From NCBI GenBank assembly GCA_025041175.1, contig JAKCFJ010000004.1:124001-188000 (forward strand): a stretch of 64,000 bases of DNA, given 5' to 3'. Position numbers and translations under genes: made by a program. The notes under the pieces were generated by a model that ran no database searches, was not told the DNA's origin, and saw only the letters and a program-made list of their open reading frames with translations. Positions within the stretch are counted from its first letter, which is position 1, and each line of letters begins with the position of its first letter. Below are positions 1,378 through 16,946 of the stretch, piece after piece. Source of the stretch: Halobacteriales archaeon YIM A00010. GTDB taxonomy: Archaea; Halobacteriota; Halobacteria; Halobacteriales; Haloarculaceae.

Positions 1378-3316
1378 TCAGCCGCCTGGCACGAGGCAGA
1401 ATGCAAGGATCTCGATGAACTCACCAGCCGGGATCGGTGGCTGCTCACCGAGATGCACGTCCACAGCGTCCCGGAACAATAGATTCGTCACCCGCTATAC
1501 GTTGTACATGACGACACCGATCGCGAAATATAGAAACCGTACCCGATAGTCCATCGACGCAACCGTTGGCAGGAAATGTTCCTTGATTGTTTTGTATTCA
1601 TTCTCGATCTGCCACCGCTGCGTATATTGGCCAGTGAATCCCTGTCCAATGGGACATCGCGATTCGTCGTGAACACTGCATAGGCCCCGTCTTCTTTCGT
1701 TGAGGGGACGTACATGATGCTCCCTGTATGCACGCGGCCATCAAACCCGTGTGGCACCTTTCGCACAACGCCCACTCCGGTTACGGACTCCCGTTCCAGC
1801 TCCTCGATGTCCTTAATTTCGGTTTTGTACTTTCGTTTCGGGATGAGGTAGGTCATCTCGTGACGGTCGATTGCATCCCGAACACCGTTCGCGTCAAACG
1901 CACGGTCACAAAACACCTTATGGATGTCAACGTGCTGCTCGGCCTGCGCTACTAATCGCTCGACAATACGCTCCTGTGACGTGTCGCCTGCATCATCGGT
2001 TTCCCACACAGAGTCCCGACGCACCGGTTCAATACCGAGGACGATCGGCGTGTCCTCCCCAATGATGGTGATCGTCGCCATTGCGTACCCCCGCTTGTGT
2101 TTTTCTTTCAATCCATGGACCATCTCCGGATAACCCTCTCGTGGGTATCGCTCTTTGCCGTCCACCACCACAGAGTCATCGCCATACGTCACGTCTTCGT
2201 CGTCTTTGTACGGTGAGGCGTAGACCGGCCAGGGCGTGATATCGATGGCGGCAATGGCAGGTTCGCGGAGGCCGCCGTTTTCCCTGACTTCGTCGAGGAT
2301 CGTCTCGATGCCGTGGTGGAAGGGGTCAAGTACCTCGTCACGGATACGTTGCCAGTCTGTCGGCCGTTGTCCGTTTTCGTATTCATCAAGCGTGGTCTGC
2401 GGTGGTGGAGTGGCGGTTTGCTTCATCGTGCGGAGATGGGTGTCGGGATGGGGTGTCTTCGCCCGGTCGCTGAGGCGTTCGAATCGCTGACTGGACCCAA
2501 CCGACCGCGTTGTCGTTCCCCTGTCCGCCATGTTCAGGTAGGCCTGTCGCTCGAAAAACACGAGATCCTCGAACGTGGCGTTGCTCGCCCGCTTCGTGTC
2601 GAACTCATCGAGTCCCCGTTCTTGCGCCGTCTCGACGGCGTCCATGATATGATCGTCGGTGATCTCGGTGGCATTCACCCTATCAGGGTCAAGCCGTGGC
2701 TCGCCGTCTGAAATGATGTCGTGGTCGCTGGCGATAGTCCGGATTTCACGGGCGGTCGCTTTGATTATACGACGGTCAGCGAGTGACAGTCGGTTGCGCC
2801 AGATGTAGTTGATGGCTTGCTGTGTCGGGGGACGGGGGAACTCGAAACGTATCCAGACGTAAGCGGCACCCTTCAATCGGCGGTAGAGCTCGCTCTGGGT
2901 GAACCCGCGTACATACTGATAGAGGAACATTCCGACGACCGATTCGAACGCGAAGTCGGCTGTGTTGGGATGAGGATACCGGTCAGAAAACGACTCTATC
3001 GGTATTTCCAAGGGCACTGCTAGATTGGGAAAATATGGCGGACAGCGCCAGGGTGATCTGATGCCAATGTATATCAAGAAACGCAGGTGATTGATCACGC
3101 AGCTGATTATGGCTGCGTGAGCGATCATGGAACAGCAGTTATGCAGCATGAAACGCCACGATTCCTATGCACCAGTCCGTTCGACCGGCCGTCCTCTTAT
3201 GATTCTCTCCCAATCTAGCAGTGCCTTTCCAAGCGAGTAATCACCTGCGTGATATGATCGTGAAGGCCGCACAGCTCCTCGGCCTGGGCAATGAGAGATG
3301 TGAGCGGCTCACTCAT
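1378..3316 (-). pseudogene. IS4-like transposase, broken by a MITE, a frameshift and a stop codon
   Basis: The gene can be rebuilt. The true start is the ATG at 3316 (MSEPLTSLIAQAEELCG...). Coding runs to 3226, is interrupted by the 213-bp element at 3013-3225, and resumes in frame at 3012 as ...TRLEIPIESFSDRY. The catalytic blocks AIDITP and FCDRAFD are intact. About 40 codons before the third acidic block a one-base loss near 1640 shifts the frame; reading on in the correct frame gives YTQRWQIENEYKTIK and then a TAG in place of a sense codon after VVMYNV, followed by about 35 more codons ending at 1378. An apparent start at 3149 lies inside the inserted element and is artificial. This transposase cannot be active. 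Confidence 0.85.
3013..3225. mobile_element. 213-bp MITE with 18-bp perfect inverted repeats and 8-bp target duplication
   Basis: The ends are GGCACTGCTAGATTGGGA (3013-3030) and its exact reverse complement (3208-3225). The flanks are TTTCCAAG on both sides (3005-3012 and 3226-3233). Removing one flank copy and the element restores the reading frame of the host transposase. The terminal sequence matches the end of the IS6-like fragment at 60461-60475, where the transposase stop codon lies inside the same repeat, so an IS6-family enzyme probably moved it. It contains a hairpin at 3096-3119 (CACGCAGC, 8-nt loop, GCTGCGTG) and no gene. Confidence 0.9.
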
Positions 3317-3467: not shown

Positions 3468-6185
3468 TCACTCATCGAGAACTTCCACCGTCCCCTGTTT
3501 CCCATCAATTCTGATGCGGTCTCCCGTCTCAATGGTCGATGTTGCATCCGCGACGGACACAACGGCCGGGATACCATATTCCCGAGCAACTAATGCACCG
3601 TGCGTCATCCGGCCACCAACTTCCATCACAAGCCCGGCTGCATTCAGGAAGAGTGGTGTCCACCCGGGATCGGTTGACGGCGCGATAAGAATCTCGCCGT
3701 TCTTGAGGGACTCTCCGGTCGGATCACGAACCACGCGGGCAGGCCCGTCGACGACACCCGCAGAGACAGGCGTCCCAGTGAGCATTCCCTCCGAATCCTC
3801 GATGTCCTCTGTTGCTGTTGGAGTTTCCCCTTCGCTCGTGAGTATCGGGGGCGCAGTCAGTGAGGCGTGGCGTTCGTGGGTTCTCCGACGTGTTTCGATG
3901 TCTGCATCAATGGGAGCGTCCTCTTCAAGAGCGGCGAGCAGTTCGTCCTTGCGCAGATACCAGACGTCGTCCGGCCGGCTCAGACGACCGTCGGCAGTGA
4001 GTGCTTCTCCGATGTCAGTGAATTCGTCGTGTGCGGCCGCGAGCAGGTGCGCCATCCCTTGTTTGGGGTACTCCCGCAGTTGAATCCCGCCACGGTAGGT
4101 CCGAATGAGACGCCGGACGACCGGTTTTTTCACCGGACCAAACACGCCCTGACCGGCGCGTGCCTCAAGCCGAGAGGCTGCTTGCTGGGCCTCACGCTCC
4201 AACCGTTGCAGGTGGTCGCGATGCGCTCTAGGGTCGCCCTGCACGAGGTTGCTCCGGATCGTCCCCATCACCGTTTCGGGATTGTCCCGCCAGCGGGGGC
4301 GACTGAGGTCAATCTCGCTACTTGCCCGGTGTCCGAACTCGTCAAGGAACTCCTCGAATGCGTCCACAAATTCGTCTCCCCCATCCACCTGTTCGATCTC
4401 TGCCAGCGATGCCTCGTCTCTGAGTGCCTGCGCCACGTCGGAATGGCGGCGGGCAACGTCAGCAAAGTCGCCCACTTGCTGGTTTATCTGGGTGACGATC
4501 TCTTTCTCGAAGCCCTTGCCGAGTGCCTCGATATCGTCGTCAGCATCCGGAAACAGACGGACGAGGAGCTTTTTCGCTGCGACGCCCGCCGGTAACGAAG
4601 CCATATGGGGAAGCGCTTCGGTGAGTAACGCTCCCAAGTCGAACTGTTCGAACGCAGCCCGAACACGCTCTGCACGAGACGTGGGCTGACGGACGCGTGT
4701 GGCTAACCGTTTGCCCCAGGTCTCATACCAGCCGCGTTCGTCGTCGAGATTCGGTGGGCCGAGAACGAACGAGCGAGTGAATCTGGCCACCATCCGCGGC
4801 ACCACCGATACGACGATCGGGGCTGCACGGCCGATACTGCGAGCGATCGTCAGTACTCCGTCGACTCGTTCTCGGGGTGGGATCGCCTCGCTCCGCTGAT
4901 CCAATACGTGCCGAAGAGCGTTCGCTGCCGGTTCGCTCATCGCGTCGAGAACATCTGGAAGGGACTGCCGCAGCGTGTCGATACGTAACAGTGGCGTCAG
5001 GTCGATATACACCCGATGTCCGGCTTCAACTCCCCACAGCTTGGTAGACGCCTCCGGCCGGATTCGTGTCGCGACCCCGGTCACGAACTCGCGCAAGAAA
5101 TCCACGACGAGCGGGGGGAGCGCCTTTGGCATCGCTTGCTGATGACCGAAACTGTAATACACATGTAAGTATTCGTCGTCCGGAAGCGGCGATGGAAGCG
5201 GATACAATGATGTGATCGGGCGGGCCTGGAGGAGCAGGAATTCGTCATTCACGAGCGCCCACTCGATGTCTTGTGGATCCCCCAGTAGCCCCTCGATCTG
5301 GTCGCCAAGGGTGACAAGCGTTCGCAACTGTGCGTCCGACAGCGCATGCGACTCCCGCTTTTCGGATGGAAGTTCGACCGTTTTCGTCCCGCCAGCATCG
5401 GCCGCTTCCGAGCGAAGGGCGTGGCCCTTGGTCCCGACATCGTACTCGAGTACGTCCCCAGTTCTCCGATCGACGCGGGCGTTGTCGGGTGAGACCTCAC
5501 CTGCGACGACCGTATCCCCAAGGCCGAAGTTGGCGTCAATCGACGCAATATGGCGATTACCGGAAACGGGATCGGCAGTGAAGAGAACGCCAGCAACCTC
5601 TGGGTCAACCATTGTTTGCACGACGACCGCCATGTCAACCTCGGTGTGAGAGATATCATTCCGTAATCGGTAGGCCACGGCGCGATCAGTGAACAGGCTC
5701 GCCATACAGTCACGGATCCGATCAAGAACTGCTGCCTGTTCGGTGACGCCGAGGAACGTCTCGTGTTGCCCGGCGAACGACGCCGTTGGCAAATCTTCCG
5801 CTGTTGCACTCGACCGGACGGAGTACGCGTCAGCGGTGACCGTATTCAGTGCGTCCACGACGGCTTGCTGGACCGCGTCTGGGAGCTCGTGCTGCTGGAT
5901 CTCCGACCGGACCGCTGCACTACCCTCAGCGATCGTCTCCGTATCCTCCGGATCAAGCATTTCCACCGACTGGATCGCCGTCTGGATATCCGAATCATCG
6001 ACGACTGCTCGGTATGCGGCGGTCGTCACACAGAATCCGGACGGGACGGGAAGGTCTGCCTCGATGAGGCGTGCGAGATTTGCGCCTTTTCCGCCGGTCA
6101 ACGCGAGGTTCGTTGCATCTGATTCTTCTAGCGGAATCACGAATGGCTCCCGTTCGGACTCGATTGGCTCTGTCGTATCACTCAT
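3468..6185 (-). CDS. PEP-utilising phosphotransferase resembling rifampicin phosphotransferase
   Basis: 905 residues with the architecture of the PEP synthase / Rph family. An N-terminal ATP-grasp domain (about 1-335) has GGKGANLARL near residue 32, SVRSSATAEDLP near 121 and LLLQARPIT near its end. A long middle domain (about 340-790) follows, then a C-terminal phospho-histidine domain with GGRMTHGALVAREYG; the swivelling histidine is about residue 862. Rph enzymes phosphorylate rifamycins using ATP in a two-step transfer. Rifampicin does not inhibit archaeal RNA polymerase, so the natural substrate here is unknown. The start ATG lies 8 nt inside the upstream efflux gene, so the two are translationally coupled. 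A PEP synthase role is less likely because the middle domain does not look like the canonical PEP-binding barrel. Confidence 0.8.
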   Translation of the reverse strand: MSDTTEPIESEREPFVIPLEESDATNLALTGGKGANLARLIEADLPVPSGFCVTTAAYRAVVDDSDIQTAIQSVEMLDPEDTETIAEGSAAVRSEIQQHELPDAVQQAVVDALNTVTADAYSVRSSATAEDLPTASFAGQHETFLGVTEQAAVLDRIRDCMASLFTDRAVAYRLRNDISHTEVDMAVVVQTMVDPEVAGVLFTADPVSGNRHIASIDANFGLGDTVVAGEVSPDNARVDRRTGDVLEYDVGTKGHALRSEAADAGGTKTVELPSEKRESHALSDAQLRTLVTLGDQIEGLLGDPQDIEWALVNDEFLLLQARPITSLYPLPSPLPDDEYLHVYYSFGHQQAMPKALPPLVVDFLREFVTGVATRIRPEASTKLWGVEAGHRVYIDLTPLLRIDTLRQSLPDVLDAMSEPAANALRHVLDQRSEAIPPRERVDGVLTIARSIGRAAPIVVSVVPRMVARFTRSFVLGPPNLDDERGWYETWGKRLATRVRQPTSRAERVRAAFEQFDLGALLTEALPHMASLPAGVAAKKLLVRLFPDADDDIEALGKGFEKEIVTQINQQVGDFADVARRHSDVAQALRDEASLAEIEQVDGGDEFVDAFEEFLDEFGHRASSEIDLSRPRWRDNPETVMGTIRSNLVQGDPRAHRDHLQRLEREAQQAASRLEARAGQGVFGPVKKPVVRRLIRTYRGGIQLREYPKQGMAHLLAAAHDEFTDIGEALTADGRLSRPDDVWYLRKDELLAALEEDAPIDADIETRRRTHERHASLTAPPILTSEGETPTATEDIEDSEGMLTGTPVSAGVVDGPARVVRDPTGESLKNGEILIAPSTDPGWTPLFLNAAGLVMEVGGRMTHGALVAREYGIPAVVSVADATSTIETGDRIRIDGKQGTVEVLDE

Positions 6186-7869
6186 TGTTCTGTAATTCAG
6201 TGTTCATCGGTTGTGAGGGCTGCACCTGTTGTGTGGCCGCGGTTGGTTGATTCAGCTCGTCCGGTATTCCGGGATCTGAGTGGATATCGAGGTCCTTGAA
6301 TGCGTCCGTCACACCACCATCCGTTGCGGCGCGTGGTTCTCCTCGATCCTGCTTGCTTAGTTCCAATTCTGGCAGGAGGAGTGCTATCAGAAACCCGATA
6401 CCAAGCATGACGGCACCCACAAGGAATACGTCGTGGAAGGCGTCTACAACTGCGCCAAGAACCTGTTGCTGACGCTGTGGTGAAAGGTGGTGAAGTGTCT
6501 GTGGGTTCTCCGCTATCCGTTCGGACTGTGCAGTCGATGGGAGAATATCGCGTAGCTCGGTCGTCAGCTGACGGTCCAAGACGATACCGAACACAGCAAC
6601 GCCGAGCGTTCCACCGAGACTCCGAGCGAACCGTTCCACTGCACTTACTGCGCCGAGGTCTTTTCGGGCAGCGGCATTCTGCATGGCAACCTTCAATACG
6701 GGAACTGAAACACCGAGAAGCCCGGCGATGAACATGTATACGGAAGCACGAACCAGAGAGACGTTCACACCCATTGTTGCCAGGAGATAGTAACCGAATC
6801 CACCAATCGCCATACCGGAAACAACGAGGTATTTATATTTACCAGTCTTAGCCATGAGTGCTCCACCGACCACTGAACTGGAGATGTATCCAACTAGCAG
6901 TGGGAACAGTATGATTCCCGTGCTTGTCGGATCCTGACGAAGGACTGTCTGAATGAATATAGGCAGATAATTAACGCCAGCCAGGAATGCCGCGCCGGAG
7001 AGCAGCGAGAGCCAGAATGACACGCTGATTGTACGGATATCGAATAACCGCAATGGAACGATCGGTTCGTCGGCGCGCTGCTCCTGCATGAAGAACAACG
7101 GCAACGTGACGGTCATCGTCATAGCGAGAGCGATGATCGCCCACGAATCCCAGGCATACTGATCCCCACCAAGGGTCGCCATCATCATCAACGCGGAGAC
7201 TCCGACGACAAGGAGGATAGCGCCCGCAATGTCGAGCGGGTGGTCCTCGTCTGGCACCGGGACCTCAAATGATGTCTCGATAAGGGCCATCGCGACAAAT
7301 CCGAGGGGAACGTTGATGAAAAATACCCATCGCCACGAAAACGCATCAGTGAGATAGCCCCCAACGAGTGGGCCTGCGATCGTTGCCACGCCGAAAACAA
7401 TTCTCATATAGCCCATGTATTTCCCGCGCTCACGCGATGAGAAGAGGTCGCCGACACCGGCAGTCCCGATCACCGCCAGCCCACCAGCACCAATGCCCTG
7501 AAGGCCACGAAACAGTGTGAGTTGGAATATCGATTGGGCAAGTCCTGAGAGAATCGAGCCGACAATGAATGTGAGTAATGCCGCATGCATAACGTTCCGT
7601 CGGCCATATGTATCCGAAAGCTTCCCGTACAGCGGTGTGGCAGCTGCCAGCGTCACGAGATAGGCGGTCACGATCCAGAAGATTCGTCCGATTGAACCAA
7701 GGTCAGCCGCGATAGAGGGAAGGGCCGTAGCGACGATCGTCTGATCAAGTGCTGCGAGCGCCATCCCTAATACCAATCCAACGAACGCAACGTACGTGCT
7801 GCGATCATCCGTAGGGCTCCCTTCGCTATCTCCGTGGGGAGGGGATTCCTCACCCTCGGAGGGAGCCAC
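6178..7869 (-). CDS. DHA2-type (14-TM) MFS multidrug efflux transporter
   Basis: 563 residues with about 14 hydrophobic segments. The family motifs are visible: LDQTIVATALPSIAADLG in TM1, GKLSDTYGRRN after TM2 (motif A), FRGLQGIGAGG in TM4, and GPLVGGYLTD in TM5 (motif C of antiporters). It should export hydrophobic drugs in exchange for protons or sodium. It is the first gene of an operon with the Rph-like enzyme (8-nt overlap). A Bat-type regulator is divergently oriented 364 bp away, so the trio looks like a regulated detoxification module. The acidic N-terminal 25 residues are usual for halophile proteins. Confidence 0.88.
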   Translation of the reverse strand: MAPSEGEESPPHGDSEGSPTDDRSTYVAFVGLVLGMALAALDQTIVATALPSIAADLGSIGRIFWIVTAYLVTLAAATPLYGKLSDTYGRRNVMHAALLTFIVGSILSGLAQSIFQLTLFRGLQGIGAGGLAVIGTAGVGDLFSSRERGKYMGYMRIVFGVATIAGPLVGGYLTDAFSWRWVFFINVPLGFVAMALIETSFEVPVPDEDHPLDIAGAILLVVGVSALMMMATLGGDQYAWDSWAIIALAMTMTVTLPLFFMQEQRADEPIVPLRLFDIRTISVSFWLSLLSGAAFLAGVNYLPIFIQTVLRQDPTSTGIILFPLLVGYISSSVVGGALMAKTGKYKYLVVSGMAIGGFGYYLLATMGVNVSLVRASVYMFIAGLLGVSVPVLKVAMQNAAARKDLGAVSAVERFARSLGGTLGVAVFGIVLDRQLTTELRDILPSTAQSERIAENPQTLHHLSPQRQQQVLGAVVDAFHDVFLVGAVMLGIGFLIALLLPELELSKQDRGEPRAATDGGVTDAFKDLDIHSDPGIPDELNQPTAATQQVQPSQPMNTELQNNE

Positions 7870-8135
7870 TCAGACCACCTCCCCACCAATGGCGATCCGT
7901 CGTGTCCGTCCGACAGAGCCACCTGCCTGTAGTAGTCGTAGACGCCGTCGATTGTGATGAGTAATCCAACGAGCACGTCGGTCCGCAACGCGACAATCGA
8001 TACGTTGAGCATAACAAATGATCCGGCAATCTGGTACACGCTGAGTAGCCCATCTAGGCTCGCGAATTCCTTGATTGGTGGTCATGGTCCTTCCACTCTA
8101 CCACTACCATAGCACTACGAAGCGATGCGACTACT
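7870..8135. promoter_or_regulatory. Divergent promoter region of the efflux operon and its regulator
   Basis: No convincing gene. A minus-strand frame (about 7900-8039) has a short hydrophobic stretch but overlaps the efflux start and has no recognisable relatives. The region should hold the efflux operon promoter. Confidence 0.45.
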
Positions 8136-8152
8136 GCCTAGATCCCGCTAGG
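8136..8152. promoter_or_regulatory. Inverted repeat GCCTAG-N6-CTAGG, candidate regulator binding site
   Basis: GCCTAG (8136-8141), six bases, CTAGG (8148-8152). It lies directly upstream of a TATA-like CTTTATGTA that would serve the regulator at 8234. The same motif with the same spacing occurs at 24549-24566, upstream of the closest paralogue of that regulator. This makes it a candidate operator for this Bat-type subfamily. Confidence 0.6.
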
Positions 8153-8233
8153 TATCTTTATGTATAGAATCGAAATAGCGTTCATGGACACCCGGTCATC
8201 AGCCACGGCACGTACGGATTGGGGAAGTGAGCC

Positions 8234-8896
8234 ATGAGATACATTACGTGTGTCATTCATCGAACCGACGGAACTCACTCCGTGAGACGGCGGCTCGTCG
8301 AAGAGCCTGGAGTGACGCTCGAGGCAGTCCTTTCGTTCAATATCCTGAATGATGGATCGGGCCATCGGCTGGCCCGACTCCGTGGTGACCTCGAACGGGT
8401 TCGAGAGCTACTGGCCAAGCGGTCGGACGTACTCGCGTATGACATCTTCGGGGAGCACGAGGGCCTCGTGTACGTACATACGCAGCCAGCCGAAAACGAC
8501 CCCCTCACACGGTTATTGTCCATTCCCCGAGAACACGAGGTGTTTTTCGACATGCCGATCGAACGCGCCGGCGTGGATACGATGCGCGTGACAATGCTTG
8601 GCGAGACAAGCACGGCGTTACAGCGAGCGATCGCAGATGTTCCTGACGAGTTCGATCCTACCCTCGAGCGAGTCGGGGAGTATCCGCCGAACAGTCGGGA
8701 TCTGTCCTCGCTACTCACGGACCGCCAACGGGAGATTCTCACGGTGGCCGTCGAGATGGGATACTACGACATCCCACGACGAACGACACACCGGAACATT
8801 GCCGAGGAGATTGGGCTATCGGTGGGAACGGTCAGCGAGCACCTCCGAAAGGTGGAGGCGAAAATATTCTCAGCAATTGTGGACAAAGAGGTGTAA
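8234..8896 (+). CDS. Bat-type HTH regulator, divergent from the efflux operon
   Basis: 220 residues. It starts with MRYITCVIHRTDG, the usual opening of the haloarchaeal bacterio-opsin-activator family, followed by a sensor-like domain (about 1-150) and a C-terminal HTH_10 domain (about 155-215) with LTDRQREILTVAVEMGYYD and GLSVGTVSEHLRK. Its closest relative in the window is the cassette-interrupted gene at 23085-24514. The position suggests that it controls the efflux/Rph-like operon and itself, probably through the inverted repeat at 8136. The inducing signal cannot be inferred. Confidence 0.85.
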   Translation: MRYITCVIHRTDGTHSVRRRLVEEPGVTLEAVLSFNILNDGSGHRLARLRGDLERVRELLAKRSDVLAYDIFGEHEGLVYVHTQPAENDPLTRLLSIPREHEVFFDMPIERAGVDTMRVTMLGETSTALQRAIADVPDEFDPTLERVGEYPPNSRDLSSLLTDRQREILTVAVEMGYYDIPRRTTHRNIAEEIGLSVGTVSEHLRKVEAKIFSAIVDKEV

Positions 8897-9625: not shown

Positions 9626-9958
9626 CTAGTCATTGACTTGAGTGTATGTTCCCATATCTGCCTTGATCCCGAGACGGGCGATCATCTCTTGTGGATCGAA
9701 ACCCATGCGTTCATGCATGGCCGTAATCGTATCGCGGGCGTTCTCAAGAGCCTCCTGATTCTCCCACTCAACGATCGTGATGAGAGTGAACTCACCAGAT
9801 TCCCCCGGCTGTTCAAGCACGAAGTCTTGGATGAAGCCCGGCTGATCCTTGAGCACGTCGTGCGTGCGTCGAAGTGGGCGAAGGAACTCCTCACGAGCCT
9901 CGCCGGGGATGATGAACTTGTCGACACGGTAGATACGAGGAGATGGGGTCTCGGTCAT
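9626..9958 (-). CDS. Antibiotic biosynthesis monooxygenase (ABM)-fold protein
   Basis: 110 residues, the usual size for a single ABM/dimeric alpha-beta barrel domain. VDKFIIPGEAREEFL, then QPGFIQDFVLEQ and EWENQEALENA match the family pattern of strand, helix and a central hydrophobic strand. Members oxidise small aromatics or bind haem or flavin degradation products; the substrate is not predictable. It stands alone between spacer regions. Confidence 0.75.
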   Translation of the reverse strand: MTETPSPRIYRVDKFIIPGEAREEFLRPLRRTHDVLKDQPGFIQDFVLEQPGESGEFTLITIVEWENQEALENARDTITAMHERMGFDPQEMIARLGIKADMGTYTQVND

Positions 9959-10955: not shown

Positions 10956-11103
10956 ATACATGCCTTCGACTCTCAGCCCCATCCGCTTTACTCTGAACAT
11001 GTTCACGTTAATCATTAAATTTCCTCTTCTCGTAGTATACTCATGAGGAGACAAACGCAGGGTGCCGTACACGCCGTCAGAATCAGACAACTGAACATTG
11101 ATT

Positions 11104-11110
11104 GGGGAGG
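11104..11110 (+). promoter_or_regulatory. Strong Shine-Dalgarno site fixing the NmrA-like start
   Basis: GGGGAGG ends six bases before the ATG at 11117. This favours that start over an in-frame TTG at 11102, which overlaps the site itself. Such clear sites are uncommon in haloarchaea, where many mRNAs are leaderless. Confidence 0.6.
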
Positions 11111-11116
11111 ACCACC

Positions 11117-11998
11117 ATGAACCCCCGCAGCGTCTTTGTCACCGGAGCGACTGGTCAGCAGGGAGGTGCGGTTGCCAACGCCCTACTGTCCGGTGAGTAC
11201 GGCGAATTCGATGTCCACGCGCTAACGCGCAATCCCGACAGCAACCGGGCGCAGACGCTTTCCGACCGGGGGGCAACAATCACAGAGGGAAACCTCCTCC
11301 ACAAAGACAGCCTCAGTTCCACGGTCAAGGCTGTTGACGCAGTATACTGCGTCACAACGCCCGCAGAGGGAGTTGATGCCGAGATCGAGCAAGGAACAAA
11401 CATGGTCGAAGTTGCGGCCGATGGGAGGATTGAGCACTTCGTGTTCAGCTCTGCCCGCGGAGCCGAGCGCGACACTGGGATTCCCCATTTCGACTCGAAA
11501 TACGCAGTCGAACAGCGCATTCGCGACCTTGAGCTTCCAGCAACGATCATCCGGCCGGTAGCCTTCATGCAGAATTACGAATACCAGCGCGAGGTGATCC
11601 TGAACGGAACCCTCGCGTCTCCCCTGGATGAGGGCGTTCCACTGCAACTGGTCGATACCGAAGACATCGGTACCCTCGCCGCCACTGCGTTGGCGACTCC
11701 CGAGACGTACGTCGGTGAGACCATCGAGTTGGCCGGTGATGAACACACGCTCGAAAGCGCGGCCGAGGTCTTCTCCGCTGTGGCGGGGACCAAGGTCAAC
11801 GCACAGCACGTCCCGATTGAGGTCGCGCGTGAGGAGATGGGGAAGAGTCTGACCATGATGTTCGAGTGGCTCGATGACCACAGGTTCGACAACAATATCG
11901 AGGCACTGGAGCGCGACCATGACATCAACCTTACCCGGTTCGAAACGTATCTTCGTGAGCATGGGTGGGCCAGTGGACGAAACCAGATAAACAAATGA
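11117..11998 (+). CDS. NmrA-like NAD(P)-binding protein
   Basis: 293 residues with a Rossmann fold. VFVTGATGQQGGAVANALL at the N-terminus is the GxxGxxG dinucleotide site. HFVFSSARGAERDTGIPHFDSK follows at mid-length, but the YxxxK of active short-chain dehydrogenases is not obvious. NmrA/HSCARG proteins sense the NADP/NADPH ratio or reduce quinones. It is divergent from the regulator at 10326-10955, which probably controls it. Confidence 0.82.
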   Translation: MNPRSVFVTGATGQQGGAVANALLSGEYGEFDVHALTRNPDSNRAQTLSDRGATITEGNLLHKDSLSSTVKAVDAVYCVTTPAEGVDAEIEQGTNMVEVAADGRIEHFVFSSARGAERDTGIPHFDSKYAVEQRIRDLELPATIIRPVAFMQNYEYQREVILNGTLASPLDEGVPLQLVDTEDIGTLAATALATPETYVGETIELAGDEHTLESAAEVFSAVAGTKVNAQHVPIEVAREEMGKSLTMMFEWLDDHRFDNNIEALERDHDINLTRFETYLREHGWASGRNQINK

Positions 11999-13022: not shown

Positions 13023-13985
13023 TCAGGCCTTCTGTAACGGTTTCATTACTTCATCAGCGAACAATCGTATGTTGTGGATCGCCTCGTCTCCATAATTCGG
13101 AAGCACAATTGGCGTGAAGTGCGTGAAACCGGCATCGATGAATCTCTGATACTGTTCGCGGCACTCGTTCGAGGTGCCTATGATCGCATCGGAAGCCTCT
13201 GTTTTGAGTTTTGCAACGTACTCCGCTGGTGCGATGTCCTCTTGTTTCGCTTCGTCTCGATACCGCTCCTCTAAGTCCTCCTGCGTCGGTTCGAGGACGA
13301 CGAAATGTTTTACCAGGGGTGTGATCTCGTCGCTGTTGCGTCTGATGTCCTCACAGGTCTGTTCTACTCGTCTCATCTTTTTGGTAGCGTGGGACGGTGA
13401 ATCGGCGTGTATATTGACCGCATCGGCGGTTTCCGCGACGGCATCTAGTGTTCGAGCCGATGTATCCTGTCCGATCCATATCGGGGGGTGTGGGTCTTGG
13501 ATCGGATTTGGGTCTAACGAGAGATCCGTCGTCGTATAGTAGGTGCCACTGAACGAAACGTCGTCTTCACTCCAGAGAGATTTCAGTAATATCACAGCTT
13601 CGGCCATCCTGTCGATTCGGTCCGGCGGCTCCAGATACTCGAATCCCGTCGCAGTGTACTCTCGCTGTTGGTCCCCGCCGGCCGCAATCCCGAAGACGAG
13701 TCGACCGTCGCTCATGTGATCCACAGTCGCTCCGATCTTAGCGAGCAGGATCGGCGACCGGAACGCTGGATTCGTTATTAGGCTCCCGATTTTGATGGTG
13801 TCGGTACAGGATGCGATGAACGCCAGCGTCGTCCACTGCTCGAAGAGGGGTTGCTCTCTGATCAGATGATCTCCGACCGAAATCATCTCGTAGCCCAGTG
13901 ATTCGGCTTCCTGCGCGAGCTGACGGATCGCCTCGAACGAGAGGTTCGCCGGAACGATTGGGTAATCGAAGCGTACCTCAGTCAT
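13023..13985 (-). CDS. LLM-class (luciferase-like) flavin/F420-dependent oxidoreductase
   Basis: 320 residues from the ATG at 13985. The bacterial-luciferase-like TIM barrel is shown by SLGYEMISVGDHL, FIASCTDTIKIGSLI, GRLVFGIAAGGDQQ and WIGQDTSARTLDAVAETAD. In haloarchaea such proteins usually use F420 or FMN for hydride transfer to small organics. It follows the beta-propeller gene with an 8-nt overlap (13978-13985), so the two are co-translated. An upstream in-frame ATG at 14054 would run deep into the neighbour and is unlikely. Confidence 0.85.
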   Translation of the reverse strand: MTEVRFDYPIVPANLSFEAIRQLAQEAESLGYEMISVGDHLIREQPLFEQWTTLAFIASCTDTIKIGSLITNPAFRSPILLAKIGATVDHMSDGRLVFGIAAGGDQQREYTATGFEYLEPPDRIDRMAEAVILLKSLWSEDDVSFSGTYYTTTDLSLDPNPIQDPHPPIWIGQDTSARTLDAVAETADAVNIHADSPSHATKKMRRVEQTCEDIRRNSDEITPLVKHFVVLEPTQEDLEERYRDEAKQEDIAPAEYVAKLKTEASDAIIGTSNECREQYQRFIDAGFTHFTPIVLPNYGDEAIHNIRLFADEVMKPLQKA

Positions 13986-15141: not shown

Positions 15142-16023
15142 ATGGTCGACCAGGTGAGCTCGGATCGATCCGAGGAGGTGGCTCCGGAGACAGCGTTCTC
15201 GTTGTTGACGGATGAGATCCGAATCGAGATCATCGGTGTACTCGGTCACACACCCGGCTACACGGCATCGTTTTCAACACTCCAAGAGCAAGTCGGGATA
15301 GCTGATAGCGGACTGTTCAACTATCATCTTCAAAAGCTCACGGACCACTTCATCCGCCATACGGAGAACGGCTATACGTTGCAGTACGCAGGGAGACTGA
15401 TTCATCGTGCGATCCTTGCCGGGATGTTCACGAAGCGCCCGCAGACCACTCCTGTCGAACTACAGGATGCGTGTCCTACGTGTGGAACGACGCTCGAGTC
15501 GTCCTATACCGATGGAAGGCACCGAGTGATGTGTCCGGACTGTGGGGGCGTGTCATTCATGAGCGCGCTGCATCCAGCCGGGCTCGAACACCGGACGCTC
15601 ACAGAGGTACTCGAAGCGTCGGATCGACTCTCTCGACATGGCGTCGCGCTTACGATGGACGGAATTTGTACACATTGCTCCGGCATCGTGACGCCGACCA
15701 TCGTTACTGATTCGACGCGACCGTTCGGTCAGCCGTTCGCCGACCACAGTTGTAAGAACTGTGGCCTAATACTCACGACCAATATCGGTGAGACACTCCT
15801 CCCTCATCCTGTAGTAATTTCGTTTTTCCACGATCATGGTGTGGATCTGCGGGCAACACGCACCTGGGAACTCGCGTTCTGCATTGCCGACGAGTATCTC
15901 ACGGTCCTCTCGGAAGACCCGTGGCAGATCACGGTATCGATTCCGGTCGGTGACGAGGAGCTACGAGTGACCGTTGATGGCGACCTGAACGTCATTGAAT
16001 TCGACCGAAACAACCGTTCGTGA
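15142..16023 (+). CDS. Winged-helix regulator with zinc-ribbon domain
   Basis: 293 residues. An ArsR-like winged helix (about 15-90) contains FSLLTDEIRIEIIGVL and GLFNYHLQKLTDHFI. CPTCG...CPDCGG (about 110-130) and CTHCSG...CKNCG (about 175-205) follow as two zinc-ribbon halves, then a beta C-terminus. It resembles the haloarchaeal DUF7347/DUF7351 family (my recollection). A paralogue is at 51877-52737, and an exact-looking copy of its last 48 residues lies at 26897-27051. The stop codon is at the very edge of the truncated IS630 gene that follows. Confidence 0.8.
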   Translation: MVDQVSSDRSEEVAPETAFSLLTDEIRIEIIGVLGHTPGYTASFSTLQEQVGIADSGLFNYHLQKLTDHFIRHTENGYTLQYAGRLIHRAILAGMFTKRPQTTPVELQDACPTCGTTLESSYTDGRHRVMCPDCGGVSFMSALHPAGLEHRTLTEVLEASDRLSRHGVALTMDGICTHCSGIVTPTIVTDSTRPFGQPFADHSCKNCGLILTTNIGETLLPHPVVISFFHDHGVDLRATRTWELAFCIADEYLTVLSEDPWQITVSIPVGDEELRVTVDGDLNVIEFDRNNRS

Positions 16024-16946
16024 CTCGGTGGAAGGCTGCGTATGAAGAGGAGGGCGAGGAAGGACTCGCCGCCGAACCGCGAACGAATGGCCGCACGCCA
16101 AAGCTGGCCGAGGACCACTATCAAGCCCTCGAGGAACTCCTCCTGGAGGGACCTGAAGCACATAGGTTTGAGACCAAGCTCTGGACTCTCGACCAGATCG
16201 CAGCGGTCATCGACTGTGAATTCGATGTCTCCGTCTCCAGTTCCTCGGTGTGGCGGTATCTACAAAAGATGGGCTGGAGTTGCCAGAAACCGGAACAGCG
16301 CGCCCGTAAGCGCGACGACGAAGAGATTCGCCGCTGGATGACTGAAACCTGGCCAGCGATAAAAAAAGCGCGGACGGAGGGGTTCACCCTCGTGTTCGTC
16401 GATGAATGCGGATTCTACTTAGATCCAGTCGTGCGCCGTACCTGGGCCCCCCGCGGTGAGACACCAGTCCAGTACAGTTGGACACGGCAGGGGCGGCTCT
16501 CTGTTTTCACCGCCCTCTTGATCACGCTCCATGACACTGAACAGCCCCCGGACGTGGGGCTGTTCTTCTGGATCAGAGAGAAACACTATACCGGCTGGAT
16601 CATTTACGAACTGTTCCGCGATGACTTGCGGTATCGGTGGCAGGACAGTATTCTCGTGTTGGACAACTGGAGCGGCCACAAAAAGGCAGCACGACTCCTT
16701 GAGGAGGCACTCGGTGACACATCACTGGCACTTGAGGTGGAGTTCCTGCCACCATATGCCCCGGAGTTGAATCCCGTCGAGCAGGTCTTGGAACACACGA
16801 AATATGGAGAACTGTCGAACTACATCCCCGCGGACATTGATGCCTTAGAAGCGCGCGTTGACCAGTCGATCGCGGCTAAGGATGAGCAGTCAGAGCTACT
16901 CCGAGGCTTTCTCAAAGCAGCCGAGCTTGATTTCGGGCAGGAATGA
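16020..16946 (+). CDS. IS630-family transposase, N-terminally truncated
   Basis: 308 residues. The DDE residues are visible: LVFVDECGFY, SILVLDNWSGHKK and PPYAPELNPVEQV. The frame opens with a GTG overlapping the stop of the preceding regulator and goes straight into RWKAAYEEEGEEGLAA, the end of the N-terminal helix-turn-helix. About 40 family-typical residues are therefore missing, and the IS is probably inactive. The regulator tail is identical up to its stop codon in the second copy at 27051, after which the sequences diverge, so the IS630 segment was joined exactly behind that gene. Confidence 0.82.
   Translation: MTRWKAAYEEEGEEGLAAEPRTNGRTPKLAEDHYQALEELLLEGPEAHRFETKLWTLDQIAAVIDCEFDVSVSSSSVWRYLQKMGWSCQKPEQRARKRDDEEIRRWMTETWPAIKKARTEGFTLVFVDECGFYLDPVVRRTWAPRGETPVQYSWTRQGRLSVFTALLITLHDTEQPPDVGLFFWIREKHYTGWIIYELFRDDLRYRWQDSILVLDNWSGHKKAARLLEEALGDTSLALEVEFLPPYAPELNPVEQVLEHTKYGELSNYIPADIDALEARVDQSIAAKDEQSELLRGFLKAAELDFGQE

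Follow-up and report, generated by a model that had tools for sequence, protein, structure and literature searches.

The locus considered here lies in a 64,000-nt stretch of contig JAKCFJ010000004.1 of Halobacteriales archaeon YIM A00010 (hereafter the window), and it consists of three genes. First of all, P0001 (3468..6185, minus strand) is an intact gene of 905 aa for a putative Rph-like small-molecule dikinase, identified by its ORF and translation, by Pfam and NCBIfam profiles, and by an AF2 model with a fold match to 5hv1. P0002 (6178..7869, minus strand; 563 aa, GTG start) encodes a predicted DHA2-type MFS efflux pump, and P0003 (8234..8896, plus strand; 220 aa) is a divergent regulator with HVO_0513_N and HTH_10 domains. 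The first two genes overlap by 8 nt, ATGAGTGA (6178..6185, minus strand), where P0002 ends with ...AAC AAT GAG TGA and P0001 begins with ATG AGT GAT; that is to say, the TGA stop codon of P0002 falls within the start region of P0001, and the two genes are presumably expressed as an operon. A GGAGGTG motif stands a few nt 5' of the GTG start of P0002, and the intergenic region between P0002 and P0003 (7870..8233) is presumed from its position to hold the promoters of both. The same overlap geometry is found between a TetR gene and an Rph-like gene in Haladaptatus pallidirubidus (ATGAGTGA) and at the locus of a paralogue in the host genome (ATGGGTGA), so that the start of the enzyme gene may account for the overlap no less than a link to the pump does. 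The earlier note on this DNA had described a DHA2 gene that is co-directional with an Rph-like gene and overlaps it by 8 nt, with a "Bat-type" regulator diverging from them; the orientation, the overlap, the three genes and both boundaries are correct, and the Bat-type label holds for the HTH_10 domain but not beyond it, the other domain being HVO_0513_N.

Downstream of the cassette, and outside its function, there is a transposase-like ORF (1488..3149, minus strand) with weak matches to DDE/IS5/ISH3 profiles, and transposase-like ORFs occur on either side of the region (33-968 and 16020-16946 in addition to 1488-3149). Also near the cassette in the window are genes for an ABM-domain monooxygenase (9626-9958), an NmrA-like protein (11102-11998) and a luciferase-like monooxygenase (13023-13985), together with further HTH_10 regulators.

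On P0001, Pfam recognises PPDK_N (PF01326, residues 29-326) and the PEP-utilizers mobile domain (PF00391, residues 828-898), and nothing else. With the fold match and the residue map (an alignment of 125 sequences), the protein is divided into an ATP-grasp domain (residues 1-326, 5208..6185), a middle domain equivalent to the rifampin-binding domain of RPH (residues 327-795, 3801..5207) and a C-terminal swivel phosphohistidine domain (residues 796-905, 3471..3800), all on the minus strand. The AlphaFold model, built from 40 aligned sequences, has a mean pLDDT of 89.1 and a pTM of 0.87, and its top structural match is the Listeria rifampin phosphotransferase 5hv1 (TM 0.82/0.88 over 909 columns; in a second comparison, Z 39.4 and 3.5 A over 831 residues), while PEP synthase and PPDK structures match it over only about 240-340 residues. 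The fold of P0001 is thus predicted to be RPH-like. Its residues K33, R124, T143, E308, Q320, R322, R704, E705, K708 and H862 align with K22, R117, T136, E297, Q309, R311, R666, E667, K670 and H825 of the enzyme of Listeria monocytogenes (RPH-Lm; PDB 5HV1, 5FBT), so that the two share domain order, fold and all catalytic residues; within the middle domain, catalytic Q350, R704, E705 and K708 are retained. The codons of R704-E705 lie at 4071..4076 and that of H862, equivalent to the phosphohistidine H825, at 3600..3602 (minus strand). It has been reported that changes of K22, R117, T136, R666 and E667 in RPH-Lm abolished rifampin inactivation in mutagenesis, and that R666-E667 are essential for the second phosphotransfer (PMC4844700). 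The architecture, the conserved Arg-Glu/Lys of block 9 and the swivel His, by which the RPH superfamily is recognised, are all present in P0001, and the case for reading it as a member enzyme of this superfamily is strong. In the same study, RPH was placed within a broad small-molecule dikinase family of bacteria and archaea (PMC4844700).

The phylogeny agrees with this. In a FastTree analysis of 123 rows, 59 haloarchaeal proteins form a single clade (support 100, stem 0.41), whose sister is a bacterial clade containing the validated RPH branch; P0001 belongs to a ten-member subclade of the haloarchaeal clade and is not grouped with the enzymes validated as rifamycin-inactivating. PEP synthases form the outgroup and P0001 is not among them, and this position, together with domain order and fold, bears out two points made earlier from the sequence, namely that the enzyme is Rph-like and that it is not a PEP synthase. 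The haloarchaeal branch that holds P0001 is one already placed in the family by Stogios 2016 (PMC4844700). When the middle domain was searched against 391 genomes of the class, 48 of them (about 1 in 8) proved to have relatives, and these represent 26 of the 86 genera. The host itself contains five intact Rph-like genes including that of the window, one split gene and one C-terminal remnant, none of them on the largest contig (G000, positions C3:646311, C2:596654, C3:157450, C2:577076, C2:614331-617014 and C3:223790); on C2, three of these are found in a span of about 40 kb. Elsewhere, two or three Rph-like genes in tandem follow a TetR gene, in L059 (Halorubrum sp. Atlit-26R), L188 and L052 (G034). 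Contigs G002:C1 and G006:C1 have the same size (3,915,224) and the same match coordinates, and G006 is listed with 9% contamination. Between P0001 and a host paralogue of 87% identity, dN is 0.071 and dS 0.363, a ratio of about 0.19, which indicates purifying selection and means that P0001 is not a chance ORF. The middle domain is the most conserved part of this pair (89% identity, against 83% for the ATP-grasp domain), and the substrate site is therefore under constraint and probably shared by both copies.

P0002 matches MFS_1 in Pfam and passes the NCBIfam cut-off for efflux_EmrB/DHA2 (TIGR00711, 239.4 bits against 230.2), the EmrB/OtrB/TcmA-like DHA2 exporters being the closest known systems, and it carries MFS motif A (GKLSDTYGRR at residue 82). 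Tetracycline and tetracenomycin pumps are among its better drug-specific matches; unlike the named drug exporters, however, it scores far under every drug-specific cut-off, so its cargo cannot be named. A conserved pairing of enzyme and pump is not supported: a P0002-like pump adjoins an Rph-like gene in 1 of 60 haloarchaeal loci, that of the window alone, and for this DHA2 gene the pairing is thus the single occurrence that the earlier note had named as refuting. A conserved DHA2-Rph unit was found neither in these 60 loci nor in those plasmid records of Haladaptatus, Natrinema and Halobaculum that were inspected. At the locus of the 87% paralogue no pump stands beside the Rph gene, and homology with the window does not extend beyond the Rph gene (89.7% over 3541-6101). 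A pump like P0002 (E<=1e-120) was present in just 3 of 391 genomes; the closest relative elsewhere is divergent from a TetR gene and has no Rph gene in its vicinity. A conserved downstream partner of Rph-like genes was also searched for and none was found; a DUF4010 membrane protein does lie directly downstream in two distant subclades (L169:6258-7019 and L199:9209-9985).

Other exporters do adjoin Rph-like genes. Two congeners (L054, L056) have a different MFS gene immediately upstream of a distant Rph-like gene, a DrrA-type ABC exporter pair is downstream of one host paralogue (L043), and ABC ATPase, ABC-2 permease, TetR and Rph-like genes are co-directional in two genera (L042:4037-9360, L052:3965-13012); bacterial Rph-like genes have MFS neighbours as well, in L060, L089, L101 and L124. 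Exporters near Rph-like genes are only weakly enriched over other genes (4/65 compared with 10/585, p 0.04, from a query set that favours enrichment); the effect is not robust, and within two operon steps it is not significant. Adjacent exporters amount to no more than a loose tendency, and they are not orthologous.

Functional coupling of P0001 and P0002 is accordingly a plausible but unproven hypothesis with one example. The pairing could instead be an accident of rearrangement on a replicon rich in insertion sequences, the kinase being real and the two proteins not acting jointly, and this is a serious possibility at somewhat less than even odds. It would account for the single occurrence of the exact pair, for the homology confined to the Rph gene, for the rarity of such pumps and the TetR partner of the nearest one, and for the transposase-like ORF adjacent to the cassette; it sits less well with the 8-nt overlap, the common strand, the single divergent regulator and the different exporters beside other Rph-like genes.

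The recurrent partner of haloarchaeal Rph-like genes is a neighbouring regulator, of HVO_0513 type in the subclade of P0001 and TetR in others. Of the 10 subclade members, 8, among them that of the window, have an HVO_0513-type gene within 2.8 kb upstream of Rph, and such a regulator also adjoins Rph in Haladaptatus salinisoli and H. halobius. Among the 60 haloarchaeal loci, TetR is upstream of the Rph-like gene in 16 others, and TetR_N is the domain met most often in the nearest gene upstream (11 of 51). In a regulator tree whose sample was drawn from Rph loci, the subclade regulators split into two groups, P0003 being grouped with those of L222, L043, L045, L172 and L173. When such regulators were searched for without this bias, most of the P0003-like ones were away from Rph genes. 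The two closest to P0003 in other genomes stand beside a flavin hydroxylase similar to rifampin monooxygenase and aklavinone hydroxylase (L235:5038-8014) and beside a P450 gene (L236:3514-5479), which suggests that this group of regulators controls oxidative or detoxification genes. The possibility that regulator and pump formed an older unit was considered and rejected, as the 8 loci of P0003-like regulators examined have no P0002 homologue nearby and the nearest P0002-like pumps have no P0003-like regulator nearby.

Taken together, the reading preferred here, with a probability of about 0.5, is that P0001 is an RPH-superfamily small-molecule dikinase in a local detoxification cassette with P0002 and P0003. 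In the proposed mechanism, ATP would phosphorylate H862 on the swivel domain, which would then move to the middle domain, and the phosphate would be passed to a hydroxyl of a small molecule near R704-E705-K708, giving AMP, Pi and the substrate phosphate. The toxicant or its product may then be expelled by the pump, the simplest view being local detoxification under the divergent HVO_0513-type regulator. The substrate is probably hydrophobic and hydroxylated, and perhaps aromatic. It has been reported that zearalenone phosphotransferase, a member of the RPH family, phosphorylates zearalenone (PMC11768653), and that HpeHI phosphorylates simple phenols (PMC12167813). ZPH1101 (the zearalenone phosphotransferase of Bacillus), HpeHI, CreHI and PpsAB resemble the predicted chemistry of P0001, that is, phosphotransfer from ATP to a hydroxyl compound through a swivel-domain histidine; however, HpeHI, CreHI and PpsAB are two-protein enzymes and P0001 is a single chain, and the substrates of all four are known, whereas for P0001 we infer a substrate class only, as also the activity and the joint role with P0002. 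The phenolic substrates of these relatives, and the flavin hydroxylase-like and P450 neighbours of the nearest P0003-like regulators, count for this reading; the unique pump pairing with the pump-less 87% paralogue, the report of PspR, the one haloarchaeal relative studied (discussed below), as a repressor without RIF kinase activity, and the location of most P0003-like regulators away from Rph genes count against it.

Rifamycins do not target archaeal RNA polymerase, and to that extent the earlier argument that they are irrelevant to archaea stands. For the cells it is weak, since rifampicin kills Haloferax volcanii, the cause given being membrane lysis (PMC5566976), and a Halorubrum is inhibited with an MIC of 15.6 ug/ml (PMC11721430). 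P0001 might thus inactivate rifamycins or close ansamycins that harm haloarchaea by lysing the membrane and not through RNA polymerase; the retained RPH fold and catalytic residues are compatible with this, and Stogios 2016 predicted the Haloferacaceae and Natrialbaceae homologues (clades B and C) to be rifamycin-inactivating (PMC4844700). The better arguments against rifamycin as the substrate are the pocket residues and the negative assay of PspR (PMC10948481). In a sequence alignment that is gapped around the pocket, 3 of 12 rifampin contacts are identical in P0001 (Q336, L387 and M673), a count that is approximate because several positions fall in gapped columns; V333, Y351, T354, M359, L478 and F479 of RPH-Lm correspond to F346, L364, F367, G385, A524 and L525, the assignments of G385, A524 and L525 being less certain near gaps. 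A changed substrate pocket is thus supported, most rifampin contacts being replaced. Validated RPHs are defined by membership in clade A, more than 42% identity to RPH-Lm and a score above the cut-off of the curated NCBIfam equivalog RIF_Ptrans_rph. P0001, unlike RPH-Lm, lies outside that clade, with 35% identity and 663.4 bits against a cut-off of 999 (Bacillus RPH scores 1504). Rifampicin is therefore unlikely to be the substrate to which P0001 is adapted, and rifamycin inactivation as its role is improbable.

The assay just mentioned concerns PspR, a PPS-like protein of Haloferax mediterranei that is RPH-like and, as P0001 is, 35% identical to RPH-Lm; it yielded no RIF-P when assayed at high salt, and was reported to bind and repress the phaRP promoters (PMC10948481). 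P0001 could likewise be a DNA-binding repressor on an RPH-like scaffold with its kinase chemistry idle, but this too is unlikely. The gel shifts of PspR were made at a protein:probe ratio of 250,000:1 (PMC10948481), so specific DNA binding is weakly shown; a pure repressor would have no need of the full catalytic set that P0001 keeps under purifying selection; and P0001 has Leu364 where most haloarchaeal members carry Trp. A scan of the collected homologues for the spacing pattern of PspR F340, W360, E377, W380 and R519, used without the PspR sequence, gave only partial fits and no clear match. The DNA-binding role proposed for PspR is not assumed for P0001.

A role in catabolism, in which P0001 would prime an aromatic compound for growth in the manner of PpsAB, CreHI and HpeHI, without a part in detoxification, is likewise improbable: HpeHI has the same chemistry and architecture and the wider window holds monooxygenase-type genes, but no ring-degradation operon was recognised beside P0001, which is single-chain and has an exporter and not a catabolic gene as its neighbour. 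Finally, the automatic label of phosphoenolpyruvate synthase, carried by the best NCBIfam match (PRK06241.1-3), is rejected as next to impossible, since the His domain of P0001 is C-terminal and no C-terminal PEP/pyruvate barrel exists, while in PEP synthase the His domain is central and the pyruvate-binding domain C-terminal (PMC4844700), and since the TIGR01418 score is 372 bits against a cut-off of 739.75, the tree places P0001 elsewhere and the host has a separate PEP-synthase-like gene at G000:C1:2178105.

To return to the detoxification cassette, P0001 is an intact but otherwise unremarkable archaeal representative of a superfamily already known, and the cassette that it forms with a pump is a local assembly. 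As its branch is already in the literature, its pocket is changed and the pairing is found only here, it represents a modest, testable variant and not a new system. A wider proposal, rather doubtful at present, is that haloarchaea possess a distinct and often duplicated clade of RPH-type dikinases, with its own sensor-type regulators and some exporters, that phosphorylates and expels toxic hydroxylated compounds. If true, this would be an archaeal phosphorylate-and-export defence against compounds that bacterial RPH does not handle. In any case, the haloarchaeal clade, with its 48 genomes of 391, up to six copies per host and clade-specific regulators, provides concrete genes for finding what archaea detoxify by phosphorylation, and rph or ppsA labels in archaea should be read with caution as signs of rifamycin resistance or gluconeogenesis.
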